Of a DNA stretch of 45,573 nucleotides, positions 21,648 to 44,139 are shown piece by piece. This stretch comes from a virus, in IMG/VR virus record IMGVR_UViG_3300032296_003010, positions 1 through 45,573 of that record; one strand, given 5' to 3'. The notes under the pieces are model-generated. The model did not search any database and was not told the DNA's origin. It saw only the letters and a program-made list of their open reading frames with translations. Positions within the stretch are counted from its first letter, which is position 1. The number at the start of each line of letters is the position of its first letter. The position numbers and the translations under genes are program-made.

Positions 21648-21944
21648 ATGGCAAACCCAGCAGAAAGACAAGATTTAAACGAATTGTTACAGGCTTATGG
21701 TGGAGATTTTAAGATACCACCTGTCAAGATGAGAGAATATGTTTTAGTCTTAGCTGTAAAGGCTTATCCTCTTTTATTTCCTTTTACGGAATTTGATCTA
21801 TCTAACTTAATCGAAAAGTTAGTTCTTGAAGCAGCATTTGCAAGCTTAGGGGAACAAGAATTTCAAAGAATTATGCAAGCTTGCCTTAACGAAGCTCAGC
21901 AAACAAAGCAGGGTAACGATGGGGAAAGTGCCTCCGCAGTTTAG
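21648..21944 (+). CDS. Small helical protein at end of tail block, 98 aa
   Basis: Begins MANPAERQDLNELLQAYGG and has a hydrophobic helix VLVLAVKAYPLLFPF (about 33-47). The last 59 nt overlap the 3' end of the sigma factor gene on the other strand, with no terminator between. The weak upstream sequence CTATAGTAAGATTACAG may include a -10. No family is recognised. Confidence 0.6.
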   Translation: MANPAERQDLNELLQAYGGDFKIPPVKMREYVLVLAVKAYPLLFPFTEFDLSNLIEKLVLEAAFASLGEQEFQRIMQACLNEAQQTKQGNDGESASAV

Positions 21945-22755
21945 CAATATTATAATTAATTGATTCTCTAATAGTAAGCGGTTTAGATTTATATTTTTCA
22001 GCAAGTTCTTTAAAGGTTACTTTAACAGATGAACAATAACGATCTTCGAGAATATTAAAGTTTTTTTCCCCAATAATCCCGATCATTGCACCACGAGCAG
22101 CTTCTATTTCTTCTGCAATTTTGGCATAGGGAGAAATTCTATTTGCTATCCCAATTTCTACATCTTTGCTATCTTCATTGCAAGAGATAAGCTGGTCAAA
22201 AGAAATTAGATTCATTGCACCAAGAGCATCTAATATACGAAGTTCTTGCTTTGGATTAGGCTTAAGCTGATATCTAATTTGCTCTAAGGTCAATCCTTCC
22301 CTCAGCAAGTTTCTATACTTTAACGTTAGGTAAAAAATATCAGTGGGGATTTCAATTAAATTCTGTTTAGAGTAGTGGTCATACATTGCATCACGAATCC
22401 ACCAAGTTAAATAAGTGCTTAAACGATAACCTTTTCTCATGTCAAATTTTTGAAGCCCTTTAACAAAACCCAGCAAGCCTGCGGATATCAACTCATCAAC
22501 ATCTAAGGTTTGATATTTGCCTTGAAGCTGCCACGCCATTTTGGTAACTAACCCTAAGTTTTTTTTAACAATTTGATTTTCTATTATTTTCTTTCTTCGT
22601 TCACTTGTATTTGGCGAATAATATCTCTCTAAAGCTTCTTGCTCTTCCTTCCTTGTGTAGTGTATTTCCATCTTGTTGCGGATATTAAAAGAGAGAGCAT
22701 CGTTAGCCATCTCTTTGATAGCTTTCTTTTTTTCAGAGTCTATAAAGTCCGTCAT
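21886..22755 (-). CDS. Phage-encoded sigma70-family sigma factor
   Basis: 289 aa. Region 2 is clear at residues about 60-135: VKKNLGLVTKMAWQLQG, DVDELISAGLLGFVKGL (core binding), KFDMRKGYRLSTYLTWWIRD (-10 melting and recognition). IEIPTDI follows, as at the region 2/3 boundary. The C-terminus (about 246-289) has a region 4-type helix-turn-helix, TFKELAEKYKSKPLTIRESI. It should bind host RNA polymerase core and redirect it, most likely to late phage promoters. It is alone on the minus strand inside plus-strand late genes and is divergent from the fibre gene with only 28 bp between starts. Its own Shine-Dalgarno is weak. Confidence 0.9.
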   Translation of the reverse strand: MTDFIDSEKKKAIKEMANDALSFNIRNKMEIHYTRKEEQEALERYYSPNTSERRKKIIENQIVKKNLGLVTKMAWQLQGKYQTLDVDELISAGLLGFVKGLQKFDMRKGYRLSTYLTWWIRDAMYDHYSKQNLIEIPTDIFYLTLKYRNLLREGLTLEQIRYQLKPNPKQELRILDALGAMNLISFDQLISCNEDSKDVEIGIANRISPYAKIAEEIEAARGAMIGIIGEKNFNILEDRYCSSVKVTFKELAEKYKSKPLTIRESINYNIAKLRRHFPHRYPALFAELR

Positions 22756-27326: not shown

Positions 27327-27455
27327 CCGATATGGGAATTCCCATGTCGGAGAAAGCGTTTGCTTATTTGATGGTTATTTGATTCCAACGACACACCAAC
27401 GACAAAACGCAATCAGTGATTAGCTTTCGATCATATTCCTGACGTCGGGAATATG
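27327..27455. repeat. Two 24-bp near-perfect palindromes in a 200-bp non-coding gap
   Basis: Palindrome 1 (27327-27350) is centred on GGGAATTCCC. Palindrome 2 (27432-27455) is centred on TGACGTCG, with arms CATATTCC and GGAATATG. Each has one mismatched pair. Between them are CCAACGACA-type direct repeats and two TTATTTGAT copies, a third lying just left of palindrome 1. Palindrome 2 is followed by GGTTTTT on the plus strand, so a terminator role is possible, but no plus gene reads into it. Operator, RNA hairpin or replication site are open options. Confidence 0.6.
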
Positions 27456-39014: not shown

Positions 39015-39248
39015 TTATCCCTTTGATTGATTTTTTATTTCTTTTTTTAGCTCTTCATCTAGGATCTTAAATTTGCGATCAACATTGTTTAACCAATGGT
39101 GGTGTACTTGCCACTTAAGGATAGCGTTATCAGAATCTTTGACCAGTAAGCCTAGTCTACGGCTAACATCTTTAATTTTTTCAGCGTAATCTAAAAACTC
39201 TTTGTGAAGTTGTTTTAGTTCTGCTTGGATTTCTAGTAGGTCGTTCAA
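39015..39248 (-). CDS. Coiled-coil protein with TTG start, 77 aa
   Basis: The TTG at 39248 overlaps the primase-helicase stop as TTGA and has AAAGGAG 7 nt upstream, which makes it better than the longer frame starting inside that gene. A helix/coiled coil runs through most of the protein (LLEIQAELKQLHKEFLDYAE). May be a replication accessory. Confidence 0.6.
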   Translation of the reverse strand: MNDLLEIQAELKQLHKEFLDYAEKIKDVSRRLGLLVKDSDNAILKWQVHHHWLNNVDRKFKILDEELKKEIKNQSKG

Positions 39249-41020
39249 TTTGTTTCTCCTTTTAAAATAAATTGCCAATTTTTGCCGTTATCTTTGTTGA
39301 TAGTACCTAGTCCAGCTTTTTCCATAAGCTCAAACAGATAGCGAGCATAATCTGAGCCTTTCTTAAAGTTAGCTGGGTAACGTTTAAGAATTGTTTTGGC
39401 AAGATCATTAACTGTTCTTTTTTCCAGTGGTTTCCCCATGATTTTGTTGATGAAATATTGGTCTTCATTATTTGTTTTTTCAACACTAAACACCTTTTCT
39501 GCGTGAGAGATAAAAGCTCCAAGTAAAGAAAAAGCATTTTCGCTAGTTGTTTTAGAGATAGGTCTATCGTAAGACAGGCGGCTAAAATAACAGTCAATGA
39601 TATGCAAGAGCAATGATAGCCTTAAATAAAGGCTTGAGCATTTACTGTAATATGATTCCATAAATGGATTGTTAAGGTTCTTTTCCTGCTCTTCGTCTAA
39701 ATAATCAAAAACAAAATCAACATATTCAGAATCAATAAAAGTAATATTAGCTCCTTCTGAGGCGATGATATGGCTGTAAAACTGCGTTAATATTTCATGG
39801 TTAATATTTGGCTTGTTTTTATTTCTCTGCTTTTTCATGGACTCATGGATAACATAAACAAAACGTTCCCACAATCCATTGTCGTTATCTTTGTCTTCTG
39901 CGATGAGTCTTTTTAATACTGATGGCTGAATACCACCTGTTACAGAAATAGCAGTTTGCACCATTTCGATATCTGTATCTTGCCGAGATACAGAAAGCCT
40001 TGCACCAGCACCTAGTTGTAATAGTGTTTCTTTGTCTTCTCCCCGTCCGCCTTTATAGGAATTAAGGGAATTAAATAAACCTTTTAATTCGTCTTTATCC
40101 CATAATAACCCGTTAGGGTTTTCAAAGTGGGCTTTGCAAGCCGTTTCCATTGTGGAGTTAGAAATATAATATCTTTTGCGAATTGGTTTAGGCTTATCTG
40201 GTACTTCTACGCTTAAATTTTTTCTTTTTAAATCTTTTTTATCTTCAAGATAGCTTTTGTAGTCTTCTTTTTCTCGCTCGTATTCCTCTAGTGCCTCGAA
40301 CTGGAGTTTAGCTAAAGGTTTAATGAGACTGCTTAATACTGGTGTTTTTCCAGCACCAACTGGTAAAGCTACAGCAGACCAAAAAAAGGCATGTTCTTTA
40401 AATCCATGCTCAACTGTAAACTTAGAACCCGCTAGAGAGGCGATGATGGAAAGTAAAAAGGTAAAGGGTACTTCTGTCGGGAAATCTTCATAGCGGATAG
40501 TACACATTGATTTTAAGTAGCTATAAAGTGATGGAGGTAATATTTCTCTTAAGCTAAAGCTGGCTTGGTTTTTTTTCTTTTCAATAAAGTTTTTAATTTC
40601 TTGGGCATTAATAGAATTTTCCAACTCTTCGAATTTTTCGATAAGTTCCTTAACTTTTTTAAGATCATTCCGATTTATAGCGATTTGCTCGCTTATTTCT
40701 AATCTTTGTTTTTCCCTGTGAGCTTCAAGGATTTTGTTTAACAAAAAGCTTGCATTAGCTGGGATATCTGAAAGCTTAGAAGAGGCTTCAAGATACCCTA
40801 GCAATTCTGAATACTTGATATCGCTTCCAAGTTCTTTAAACTTAAGCTTTACGGATTCAATTTCTACAGGCTCGTTAGAGTTATACATCAACTGCATAAC
40901 TTTAAAAAGCTCTTGAGCATTAGCACTGGTAAAGTATTCTGGCTTAAGCTCGTAAATTAAATACTTGCATTCAGGCTCACAAAGGATTAAACCTAGTAAG
41001 CCTTGTTCTGGGTCTCTCAT
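39245..41020 (-). CDS. DnaB-N/DUF3987 primase-helicase-like replication protein
   Basis: 591 aa. Residues 1-100 (EQGLLGLILCEPECKYLIYE, LKPEYFTSANAQELFKVM) match the DnaB N-terminal domain. A coiled linker follows to about 160. The core from about 175 is DUF3987: SIIASLAGSKFTVEHG, P-loop ALPVGAGKTPVL (219-230, K225), then LLWDKDELKGLF and SVTGGIQPSVLKRLI. This is an unwinding ATPase used by many phages in place of classic DnaB. No separate primase motif is certain. It lies downstream of a candidate iteron origin, with only a small DNA-binding gene between. Confidence 0.88.
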   Translation of the reverse strand: MRDPEQGLLGLILCEPECKYLIYELKPEYFTSANAQELFKVMQLMYNSNEPVEIESVKLKFKELGSDIKYSELLGYLEASSKLSDIPANASFLLNKILEAHREKQRLEISEQIAINRNDLKKVKELIEKFEELENSINAQEIKNFIEKKKNQASFSLREILPPSLYSYLKSMCTIRYEDFPTEVPFTFLLSIIASLAGSKFTVEHGFKEHAFFWSAVALPVGAGKTPVLSSLIKPLAKLQFEALEEYEREKEDYKSYLEDKKDLKRKNLSVEVPDKPKPIRKRYYISNSTMETACKAHFENPNGLLWDKDELKGLFNSLNSYKGGRGEDKETLLQLGAGARLSVSRQDTDIEMVQTAISVTGGIQPSVLKRLIAEDKDNDNGLWERFVYVIHESMKKQRNKNKPNINHEILTQFYSHIIASEGANITFIDSEYVDFVFDYLDEEQEKNLNNPFMESYYSKCSSLYLRLSLLLHIIDCYFSRLSYDRPISKTTSENAFSLLGAFISHAEKVFSVEKTNNEDQYFINKIMGKPLEKRTVNDLAKTILKRYPANFKKGSDYARYLFELMEKAGLGTINKDNGKNWQFILKGETN

Positions 41021-41026
41021 TGTTTT

Positions 41027-41188
41027 TTAGTATCCTGCTTTTTTAAGTAACTGCCTTAATAAGTAATCCCAACTTATGCCGTCTTCTTTACCAAGCTTTT
41101 GCTTTAGTTCTTCCATAGTAGTTCGCTTGATGGTCATTGTTACTTGCTTGTCCCTACTTGGAGTTATTGCTTGCTCTTCTTCGTTCAT
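41027..41188 (-). CDS. Ribbon-helix-helix-like DNA-binding protein, 53 aa
   Basis: Read directly from the gap. KQVTMTIKRTTMEELKQKLG followed by SWDYLLRQLLKKAG is the strand-helix-helix pattern of CopG/Arc-type repressors. There is no Shine-Dalgarno; a promoter (TTGCTT, TAATAT) sits within 40 nt upstream, so the leader is very short. It probably binds the dyad in its own promoter or the origin repeats next to it. It ends 6 nt before the primase-helicase start. Confidence 0.68.
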   Translation of the reverse strand: MNEEEQAITPSRDKQVTMTIKRTTMEELKQKLGKEDGISWDYLLRQLLKKAGY

Positions 41189-41228
41189 GTAAACATATTA
41201 ACATTGCATGGTATTTAAAGCAATATTA
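41186..41228 (-). promoter_or_regulatory. Promoter with dyad operator
   Basis: Minus strand TTGCTT, 16-nt spacer, TAATAT about 10 nt before the ATG at 41188. Arms CATGNAA and TTNCATG (plus 41186-41210) form a dyad that covers the -10 and the start codon, a typical autoregulatory site for a ribbon-helix-helix protein. Confidence 0.5.
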
Positions 41229-41268
41229 ATTTTTTTATAATTTCAGAATCCTCGCTTTAATAAAAAAA

Positions 41269-41615
41269 GGCGGAATCCGCCACTTTTACGCTAATTTTTC
41301 CGCCATGCAAAACCCTTACGCAGACTGGATATTGGTACTATTTCCGCTTTTCCGCCTTTAGTCTAGAGAAATCCGACAATCCGACAAGACACTAATATGT
41401 TATAAAAAGATAATATATATATACTAAATACATATTTTTAACTGTGTTTATTTTTTTCTCTAGGGAAGAGGCGGAAAAGGCGGAAAACGTATATTTTAGC
41501 TCTAGGCTTGATTATCCAAGGCGGAAAAATTGACGGAAAAAAAGCGGAAAGCGGAAAATATTTAGCTGATCTACACCCAACTTGATGATAGTAGCTCTAG
41601 GCTTGATTATCCAAG
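41269..41615. other. Candidate iteron-type replication origin
   Basis: Copies of GGCGGAAAA or its complement flank an AT-only stretch (about 41395-41450). Left side, TTTTCCGCC orientation: 41295-41304, 41341-41347, 41348-41356, plus a GGCGGA/TCCGCC hairpin at 41269-41281. Right side, GGCGGAAAA orientation: 41470-41478, 41479-41487, 41520-41529 and three shorter ones to 41558. A 24-bp exact direct repeat occurs at 41497-41520 and 41592-41615. No gene lies between 41189 and 41724. Repeats plus an easily melted core beside the helicase gene fit an origin. Confidence 0.6.
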
Positions 41616-41724
41616 TATCCTGAAATTCCAGATAGTTCAAGTGTCAAGGATTACTTGACTGTTTTAATTCCCCCTTATTCGAGGGAATTAAAACTTTATT
41701 CCAAAATTAAAATTTTGGCAGAGT

Positions 41725-41925
41725 TTAAAGCAAATTAAACCTATTAGCTATAACTCCTAATTCTGCAACATCTAATATATCTAACAGATCTGAACCGTTG
41801 ATAACACAATCCTCTTCCCACTCTGCAGACTCTGATAATCTTGGGAAGATATCCACTAGATCAGACTCCATCAACTTTCCTCCAAAGCTGTTAAATATTA
41901 ACTCTCTTAATTCGTCTATTGTCAT
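41725..41925 (-). CDS. Small acidic protein, 66 aa
   Basis: Helical and acidic (MTIDELRELIFNSFGG, VINGSDLLDILDVAELGVIA), behind AGAGAGG. Overlaps its neighbour by ATGA. Not recognised; early acidic proteins may target host enzymes. Confidence 0.6.
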   Translation of the reverse strand: MTIDELRELIFNSFGGKLMESDLVDIFPRLSESAEWEEDCVINGSDLLDILDVAELGVIANRFNLL

Positions 41926-42158
41926 TTGGTTACCTCTCTCTGTTTTCTCCCTTCGATAGTGTTCTCGATCGAAACAGCTAATGCACCTTGAATGTAAAAA
42001 TGTATCTCATCGTCATAAGCTAGACCATCAACATTATCAAATCTCAAGCAAACGGTATCTCCTTGATCTATTACATTATCTGAATCTATTTCGTCGATGA
42101 TTTTTCTTAAAGTTGTGGTTAAAATTTCGTCTCTGAATAAATGTTTATTGATTTTCAT
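41922..42158 (-). CDS. Hypothetical acidic protein, 78 aa
   Basis: Begins MKINKHLFRDEILTTTLRKI and has an acidic beta part (DTVCLRFDNVDGLAYDDE). It is preceded by a leader that is repeated before the next upstream gene (ACTATCATCAA, then GGAAAAAAGAAAAA). Not recognised. Confidence 0.6.
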   Translation of the reverse strand: MKINKHLFRDEILTTTLRKIIDEIDSDNVIDQGDTVCLRFDNVDGLAYDDEIHFYIQGALAVSIENTIEGRKQREVTK

Positions 42159-42197
42159 TTTTTCTTTTTTCCTTTTTTTGTTAGCTTGATGATAGTT

Positions 42198-42497
42198 TTA
42201 AAAACGTTCATAACCATCTTGCAGGTGTTGAGGTAAATCTTCCAGCTCAAATTCAAATTCAAATTCTACGTTAATCGGCTCTTCGCTGTCCTCTTCGTTA
42301 AAGCTATAACAATTCCACATGTCGTTAAAATCTGCATGATTTTTAAAATGGTTGATTAAATCTATCTCAAAACTAATTTTATTTTTAGCTTCACCATAAG
42401 TTAATCTTTCTAAAAAAGTTAATGAATCAATCGCATTCTTAACAGTTAATTCTTCATCGTCTACTGAATCTATCGTTGTATTTATTTTGTATTGCAT
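42198..42497 (-). CDS. Hypothetical very acidic protein, 99 aa
   Basis: A charged protein with an acidic C-terminal half (YSFNEEDSEEPINVEFEFEF). Same repeated leader as the gene that follows. It could be a DNA-mimic or host inhibitor; this is inferred from charge only. Confidence 0.6.
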   Translation of the reverse strand: MQYKINTTIDSVDDEELTVKNAIDSLTFLERLTYGEAKNKISFEIDLINHFKNHADFNDMWNCYSFNEEDSEEPINVEFEFEFELEDLPQHLQDGYERF

Positions 42498-42529
42498 TTT
42501 TCTTTTTTTCCTTTTGTTTGATGATAGTT

Positions 42530-43113: not shown

Positions 43114-43164
43114 TTGTTTTTTCCTTTTAGCGAGACTCAGCCTTGCTTAATCCCTATATACCCT

Positions 43165-43173
43165 ATGATACCA
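43165..43173 (-). promoter_or_regulatory. Early leftward promoter candidate
   Basis: Extended -10 TGGTATCAT (43173-43165), 52 nt before the first early ATG. It lies inside an imperfect dyad (ATGACATGGTATCAT), which may be an operator. No good -35 is visible. The same TGGTA-x-x-x-T shape recurs at 38529, 44506 and 26146. Confidence 0.45.
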
Positions 43174-43189
43174 TGTCATAACTAAGAAT

Positions 43190-44139
43190 GCGTTAAGATT
43201 TTGAAATATTTTTGAAATATTTTTATTCAATGGCTATAACGTTGATCTAATCAGCTTTTATCTGAAAAGTTTCTTTAAAATCAACCAAATGACCTAGACA
43301 ACTAGATAACCAATAAACCAACTACCTAAACTATTAACACCTAAGTAAAACAAAAACTCAATCAGAACCCCCTAGCTACCCTTTAAACAAAAGAAAAACA
43401 AGTAAACTATTACTTATCAGTAAAACAAGAAATTAATCAAACCTAGACAATCCTGGAGCGAATAAAGAAAGCAAATAAACTATAATCAAAATGATTCAAT
43501 ACAACTTAAACAAAAAACTATCCAATGAGACAGTAAACGTTCTTCCCCTGCTCAAAAAGATTGCAAAAGTTTTAATTTAAAAAAAATAATTTACTTCCCT
43601 CTGCTGCAATTAACCAACAACTCCACTAGCCACTTATCCATTTCTCTGCTGTAACTATTCCCCCTTGACCACTGATTGATAGTTGATTACTCTGCCCAGC
43701 TGCACTGTTTACTTAGTTATTACCCTGATTGGTTAGTTATTACCCTGATTATCCTGATTGGTTACGACAAACACAAACACCTTTACCCTGCACACAACCA
43801 CAAGAGTTTGCTAAATGTTCCGGTAATCCAAAGGCACAGCCTCCAATGCAGGCTAGTCTGCGTTAAAACAAAGGTTCCCCAGCCTCAGCAACCCAAGTAA
43901 GCCCAAGTTGTGAAAACATTCCAAGATTCTGCATGTTATCTGATATCTGTAAGAGCGAACGATCAGTCCAACGATACCCCCCCGCCTAGTGATAGGGTAT
44001 TGAGGGAGGGGTGGTTGGGGAGAGTGTTATCTTGGTGGTGGTATACCCACACATAACGAGGAGCCGTACAAGTCAAAGAAAAAAAGTTTTCACTGTAGGC
44101 TACTAAAAGCACGAGTAGATAAAACAGCTAGAATAGTGT
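43190..44139. other. Non-coding divergent control region with repeats
   Basis: No credible gene. Contents: tandem TTTGAAATATT (about 43200-43222); a G-poor, A/C-rich plus strand from about 43270 to 43470; TTAGTTATTACCCTGATT at 43713-43730 and 43733-43750 (20-nt period, partial third copy at 43751); TCCAATGCAGGCTAGT at 43842-43857, repeated at 44449-44464; a GC-rich block at 43974-44024 with ATACCC/GGGTAT and a G-run cluster; and a palindrome around GGTATACC near 44049. Probably houses divergent promoters and operators, and perhaps a replication or packaging site. Confidence 0.6.

Follow-up and report, generated by a model that had tools for sequence, protein, structure and literature searches.

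A candidate iteron-type replication origin beside a DnaB_N/DUF3987 helicase gene in a tailed phage

Replicons of the SaPI/PICI type carry two opposed sets of iterons flanking an AT-rich region, and their initiator uses its C-terminal domain to bind the iterons. In phage P4, a single phage-encoded protein, alpha, combines helicase and origin recognition, and ORF56 of plasmid pRN1 is a ribbon-helix-helix (RHH) protein. The accessible part of a paper on PICIs considers the SaPI/PICI origin design to be unique to satellites (PMC10803314). Helicase activity and origin recognition by P4 alpha are touched on in the available portions of two others (PMC6092414, PMC7145576). For SCCmec, the accessible sections of one study describe Cch, a DUF927 protein, as close to archaeal and eukaryotic MCM, and Cch2 as binding the origin iterons via its C-terminal domain (PMC7581432). 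DUF3987 occurs fused to archaeo-eukaryotic primases, and its ATPase domain is predicted to be a replication helicase (PMC5862659, in the text available). In pRN1, according to the accessible part of PMC4234260, a small repressor or copy-control gene (orf56) lies upstream of the replication gene (orf904) in one operon.

We analyzed a 45,573-nt stretch of viral DNA, positions 1 to 45,573 of IMG/VR virus record IMGVR_UViG_3300032296_003010 (hereafter, the window). It is assigned to a tailed phage because it contains matches to terminase, portal and major head protein, whereas SaPI/PICI elements are satellites without the full set of virion genes. The window also has opposed iteron sets around an AT-rich region. 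The SaPI/PICI origin lies directly 3′ of the initiator gene, while the putative origin of the window lies 5′ of the helicase gene, with an RHH gene between. SaPI-related helicases belong to the DUF927 or D5/Primase_Cterm families, in contrast to the window helicase, which has only DnaB and DUF3987 matches in Pfam. The putative origin is SaPI/PICI-like and sits in an ordinary tailed phage; because position, helicase family and element type were each compared and each differ, we do not claim membership of the SaPI/PICI replicons.

The other systems also differ from this locus. Cch and Cch2 belong to other domain families and have their origin downstream of the helicase gene, and the accessible text mentions no DnaB N-terminal domain (PMC7581432). 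DUF3987-primase fusions, as described in the available part of PMC5862659, share the ATPase domain, but here a DnaB N-terminal domain stands in the primase's place; that part does not deal with origins. P4 alpha has a primase as well, whereas no primase domain was found in the window helicase. For the archaeal plasmid pRN1, the authors found no iteron origin, and the putative origin is a downstream stem-loop (PMC4234260, accessible part). What sets the present case apart is a putative origin of this design that belongs to a phage, goes with a helicase of a different family and lies on the opposite side of its gene. DUF3987 and iteron were not found together in any paper of the literature searched. 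Two papers of that literature mention both DUF3987 and MCM, and the portions available from one of them do not call DUF3987 MCM-like. DUF3987 is a domain of unknown function, seen here in phages, plasmids and viral contigs; the present reading would give it a specific role that can be tested and would indicate where its origin should be sought. The origin design would no longer be confined to satellites but would occur in an ordinary phage and, probably, in mobile elements of other kinds. The helicase concerned appears to combine an N-terminal domain of the DnaB type with a motor of the MCM type. The family would also provide a natural specificity code, with at least three iteron classes and matching helicase clades.

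Anatomy of the repeat array

The repeats lie between minus-strand genes at 41027-41188 and 41725-41925 (Table 1). This gap had been described as the only large one (about 540 nt) of the minus block. At 536 nt (41189-41724), it is the largest inside the block, but about 1 kb at the block edge (43114-44139) is also free of genes. Nine repeats were found, as predicted, in inverted orientation on the two sides of a core: three on the minus strand to its left and six on the plus strand to its right. Five of the nine match GGCGGAAAA exactly, and the window contains no further exact copy. CGGAAA occurs 17 times in the window (both strands), with nine occurrences in 41297-41557 and eight elsewhere. 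[AG]CGGAA has a tenth match, at 41270, which falls within the palindrome GGCGGAATCCGCC; the T-run of this terminator-like palindrome is not kept in the nearest relative, G001, and we did not count it as evidence.

To place these numbers in context, we scanned all 7-mers in 350-nt stretches without preselecting a motif. GCGGAAA scored best, with eight copies at the array, compared to a maximum of four elsewhere in the window and to three or four for the best clustered 7-mer in dinucleotide-shuffled sequences (n = 40). Inverted 8-mer pairs number 41 at the array versus at most 10 elsewhere in the window. Over the whole window, GCGGAAA was observed 11 times versus 5.3 expected, and 3 of 100 shuffles reach 11. 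The striking features are the clustering and the orientation; the window-wide motif count alone is less so. The central core is AT-rich, although the original term "AT-only" overstated its composition, and the 24-bp direct repeat proved exact.

Table 1. Coordinates of features at the putative origin and in the adjoining genes
Feature	Position	Strand	Basis or remark
591-aa DnaB_N/DUF3987 helicase, proposed iteron-binding self-loading initiator	39245..41020	-	
C-terminal winged-helix-like segment (residues 519-588)	39257..39466	-	H-H-H-E-E in model
DUF3987 core (residues 182-512)	39485..40477	-	Pfam; modelled MCM-type AAA+ fold
DnaB N-terminal domain (residues 4-79)	40784..41011	-	Pfam PF00772 E=1.6e-9; PDB DnaB chains down to 3.4e-16
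53-aa RHH-like protein, proposed operon regulator	41027..41188	-	weak profile matches
Palindrome GGCGGAATCCGCC, outer left edge, terminator-like on minus strand	41269..41281	.	
Iteron GGCGGAAAA, left array	41296..41304	-	exact match
Iteron AGCGGAAAT, left array	41340..41348	-	two mismatches
25-nt imperfect inverted repeat (84%) around core, left arm	41347..41371	.	
Iteron GGCGGAAAA, left array	41348..41356	-	exact match
AT-rich core, proposed melting site	41391..41445	.	13% GC; contains the window's lowest-GC 50-mer
25-nt imperfect inverted repeat (84%) around core, right arm	41455..41479	.	
Iteron GGCGGAAAA, right array	41470..41478	+	exact match
Iteron GGCGGAAAA, right array	41479..41487	+	exact match
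24-bp direct repeat, copy 1, within right iteron array	41497..41520	+	
Iteron GGCGGAAAA, right array	41520..41528	+	exact match
Iteron GACGGAAAA, right array	41532..41540	+	one mismatch
Iteron AGCGGAAAG, right array	41543..41551	+	two mismatches
Iteron AGCGGAAAA, right array	41550..41558	+	one mismatch
Conserved boundary element	41572..41719	.	DNA similarity to G002, G003, G004, G005
Promoter-like site TGGATA-17-TATCAT, reads into putative origin	41585..41613	-	consensus match only
24-bp direct repeat, copy 2, within conserved boundary element	41592..41615	+	

The boundary element is 92% identical to G005 over 150 bp, 89% to G002 over 147 bp, 96% to G004 over 79 bp and 95% to G003 over 58 bp (from 41556). 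Promoter-like matches in 41000-42300 number seven versus 4.8 in shuffles and were not counted as evidence. In the same interval, Rfam gave no match near the gathering score. GC skew had been suggested as a check. The turning points of the cumulative skew lie at 27381 and 43986 and not at the repeats; because they follow gene direction, the skew neither supports nor excludes an origin at 41.4 kb.

An RHH-like gene stands beside the repeats as expected, with a weak identification: PHROG gave an Arc-like match (E=0.0048), the Pfam match to CopG_antitoxin (E=0.1) was below the cut-off, and four homologues had no Pfam match.

Other features of the neighborhood were also recorded. The gene-free stretch at 43114-44139, where the minus and plus blocks diverge, shows a sharp change in GC skew (minimum at 43986), holds C-runs and G-runs, and could be a packaging or regulatory region; a repeat, TCCAATGCAGGCTAGT, occurs at 43842 and 44449. 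Leaders at the gene junctions 42159-42197 and 42498-42529 have AACTATCATCAA in common, followed by a purine-rich stretch, and are possibly a repeated early promoter or leader. Their CTATCATCAA part is also the end of the promoter-like site. The hairpin GTCAAGGATTACTTGACT (41643-41660) recurs exactly in 38 viral-contig stretches, 35 of them outside the phage family and several with unrelated flanks; its core had no match in the literature searched. A sigma-70-type factor gene (21886-22755; Pfam Sigma70_r2 2e-14, PHROG RNA polymerase sigma factor 2e-24) lies on the minus strand inside the plus block.

Conserved layout and covariation of repeats with the helicase

The family examined comprises seven genomes: the window, G001, G002, G003, G004, G005 and L036, with the window and G001 being near-duplicates. 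A helicase protein search yielded G001 (91% identical) and G003 (about 32%). G002 came from an alignment search, and G004 and G005 were recovered through the conserved boundary sequence TAGTAGCTCTAGGCTTG. Another contig, L006, was one of five TAGTAGCTCTAGGCTTG matches; nothing else was seen in common in its flanks, and it was dropped. The phage collection contained no nucleotide relatives of the window, the genome contigs scanned yielded no relative, and a conserved 131-aa gene used as anchor recovered only the same five contigs.

All seven members have the same order, in which an AT-rich core with opposed iterons on its two sides is followed by an RHH-like gene and then by a DnaB_N/DUF3987 gene. 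G001 and G003 have one extra ORF between the RHH gene and the putative origin; L036 is without the boundary sequence, and the G001 contig stops short of it. The iteron letters, with the consensus for each genome read by eye, are GGCGGAAAA in the window and G001, GACGGAAAA in G002, TGCAGAAA in G003, G004 and L036, and TGTGACAAT in G005. Polarity is kept in 49 of the 54 iterons of the seven genomes, the base-specific end pointing toward the core and the A-rich end outward. G003 has few iterons: four of five are in orientation, and a single one lies to the left of the core. At the boundary, the window and G003 have the outermost repeat, GCGGAAAA, in common, and it lies in DNA that they share. Loss of the repeats from close relatives that keep the gene order, named in the original prediction as the observation to look for against it, did not occur: G001, 91% identical, keeps them, and further relatives keep the arrangement, most with other repeat letters.

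We then asked which protein the repeat letters follow. Across the seven genomes and three helicase clades, helicase identity correlates with iteron identity (r=0.86), and only 24 of 5040 permutations are as good. For RHH identity, the corresponding values are r=-0.04 and 2368 of 5040 (seven genomes). Helicases of the clade with GGCGGAAAA/GACGGAAAA are 55-91% identical, those of the second clade, with TGCAGAAA, 66-72%, and the third clade goes with TGTGACAAT. In G002, G004 and G005, RHH proteins with 68-83% identity go with three different iterons, although it is the RHH gene that lies between the iterons and the helicase gene. L036, found after the idea was set down, fits the pattern: it has a clade-2 helicase (70% identical to G003, 66% to G004), its (AT)n core is flanked by TGCAGAAA iterons, and its RHH protein is 79% identical to that of G002 and 76% to that of G005. 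Because the letters follow the helicase and not the RHH protein, the helicase most likely reads the repeats and, on this comparison of sequences, most likely loads itself. The RHH protein, which the original prediction had put forward for gel-shift testing, is unlikely as a repeat binder, and we rejected it in that role on the covariation test.

The flanks tell which parts appear to move together. In DNA identity between members, the gene after the helicase reaches 86-92% and the boundary element 83-96%. Members of different helicase clades have no similar DNA at the iterons and share no more than short pieces of the helicase gene, while the RHH gene plus leader of G002, G004 and G005 shows 73-75% similar DNA across clades. 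These data suggest that origin and helicase have been exchanged together within conserved flanks, and that the RHH gene may be swapped independently. Over the last ~26 helicase codons, the DNA of the window is 92% identical to that of G003 despite different iterons, so the extreme C-terminus does not appear to set specificity; iteron specificity would lie further in than the last ~26 residues. At 39015-39278, the product has 87 aa here, compared to a 131-aa homologue (89-95% identical among four relatives), with extra starting residues and an overlap with the helicase end.

Could the array serve another purpose? Repressors of the RHH family commonly bind repeated operators beside the gene that encodes them, and a promoter-like site reads through the array; the repeats might then be operator sites of a self-repressing RHH protein, with no origin at 41269-41615. 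We regard this as quite unlikely, given that closely similar RHH proteins stand beside different repeats and that operator sites would leave the AT core between opposed arrays unexplained. A better operator candidate is the RHH-type-specific leader DNA beside the gene (75% over 186 bp for G002/G005; 73% over 237 bp for G002/G004). Another view accepts the origin but has its iterons bound by another phage or host protein, with the DUF3987 helicase merely recruited. Many phages do have a separate initiator and helicase, among them Acinetobacter phage phi1_092021 by its annotation. In the present family, no initiator gene of that kind was seen beside the helicase, the iteron letters follow the helicase, and distant DUF3987 genes also have adjacent inverted repeats, which makes this view unlikely. 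Least probable, to the point where we give it little weight, is that the arrays are recombination or partition sites (a module boundary or centromere-like) and not an origin. The letters change with the helicase, and melting accounts better than such sites would for the AT core and the opposed polarity, even though the adjoining conserved element marks a module boundary and RHH proteins can be partition proteins.

The comparisons give most support to the original prediction, an iteron-type origin next to the helicase gene, because the layout is kept in all seven members while the repeat letters change with the helicase. We think it likely that 41269-41615 is a theta-type origin of a tailed phage, in which an AT-rich core lies between two arrays of 9-bp iterons in opposite orientation and the DnaB_N/DUF3987 product binds the iterons.

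Predicted helicase fold and a proposed mechanism

The claim of a DnaB-N/DUF3987 gene held up (Pfam DnaB 1.6e-9, DUF3987 5e-42). The gene had also been called a primase-helicase; we refer to it as a DnaB_N/DUF3987 helicase because no primase domain was found in Pfam, PHROG or NCBIfam scans. A PDB sequence search matched DnaB N-terminal regions only, and the DnaB matches in Pfam and PDB end at about residue 148. A first AlphaFold model, built on 6 rows, had a pLDDT of 57 and was left out of the fold search. The model used was built on 34 aligned rows and has a mean pLDDT of 82. In VIA, whose fold rows cover residues 158-513 only, the best match of this predicted model was 6mii_B (Z 19.0, 265 aligned, 3.4 Å, 10% identity, residues 158-509), and all of the 50 matches listed are MCM or CMG/replisome structures. 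Foldseek, run with the predicted model, gave MCM at E 1.1e-4 and DnaB chains too, at low TM-score. Since the DnaB sequence matches are N-terminal only and residues 158-513 align with MCM AAA+ structures, the helicase resembles a motor of the MCM type that carries the N-terminal domain of DnaB. Residues 519-588 are modelled as winged-helix-like, and 10-residue blocks between 521 and 590 have pLDDT values of 73-91.

A mechanism can be proposed in which the C-terminal winged-helix-like part of the helicase probably binds the iterons and one helicase ring assembles per array. The MCM-type AAA+ core (DUF3987) would then melt the AT core, and the two rings would leave as two forks. DnaB-DnaG contacts are known, and the DnaB-type N-terminal domain may dock host DnaG primase. 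CopG-like partners of Rep genes repress their operon; the RHH protein here most likely does the same. We infer origin activity, binding, helicase activity, melting, loading, primase docking and regulation; where this scheme goes beyond anatomy, covariation and fold, it draws on SaPI Rep and the SCCmec helicases, together with DnaB and CopG.

Inverted repeats at distant DUF3987 genes

We extended the analysis to 43 distant DUF3987 loci from viral contigs and faecal phage records (3 faecal records and 40 others). L041, L083 and L084 were removed by hand as copies; 40 loci were entered, 10 duplicates were taken out and 30 were counted, 26 of them with enough upstream DNA. Each 350-nt stretch was scored by its number of inverted 8-mer pairs whose members are separated by at least 30 nt. 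A score of at least 8, a threshold fixed after the numbers had been seen, was reached directly 3′ of 19 of the 30 DUF3987 genes, compared to 0 of 26 upstream stretches and 10 of 146 other gene ends at the same loci. Median scores were 9 downstream (n=30), 2 upstream (n=26) and 2 at other gene ends (n=146), and the rank test, which is independent of the threshold, gave P = 4e-13 (Mann-Whitney). One caveat is that a single long spaced inverted repeat can score in the same way as an iteron array. In 16 of the 30 loci, the downstream block exceeded all other blocks. Eleven loci fell below 8 (L038, L040, L080, L081, L082, L091, L092, L094, L095, L100 and L102), and L081 showed no inverted-repeat signal. 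Opposed repeats after the DUF3987 stop codon include TGCAGTT arrays in L026 and L027, and arrays after the gene consist of CCTGACAA in L039, L040 and L042 and of AACTGTCGAA in L111.

For plasmids, five of six records were tested; L116 was left out (its DUF3987 gene is unannotated and at the record end). The downstream window topped all else in three of the five (L113, L114 and L117), the L114 signal being probably one spaced hairpin, and L115 and L118 had no downstream signal.

The side of the putative origin differs, 5′ of RHH gene plus helicase gene in the window family versus 3′ in the distant DUF3987 loci, which counts against the proposed reading; 3′ of the window helicase, there is at most one inverted pair. 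We lean slightly toward the view that DUF3987 proteins as a whole may be MCM-type self-loading, origin-binding initiator helicases with their own inverted-iteron origin in phages, plasmids and islands. In the present family, one branch would have gained a DnaB N-terminal domain, a 5′ origin and an exchangeable specificity cassette of origin plus helicase, in genomes that are otherwise related.

In L107 (5183-5500), the DNA directly 3′ of the DUF3987 gene contains tandem repeats of ~24 nt, GCAGCTAAGCCCCTTGGCACTTAC, unlike the short iterons elsewhere.
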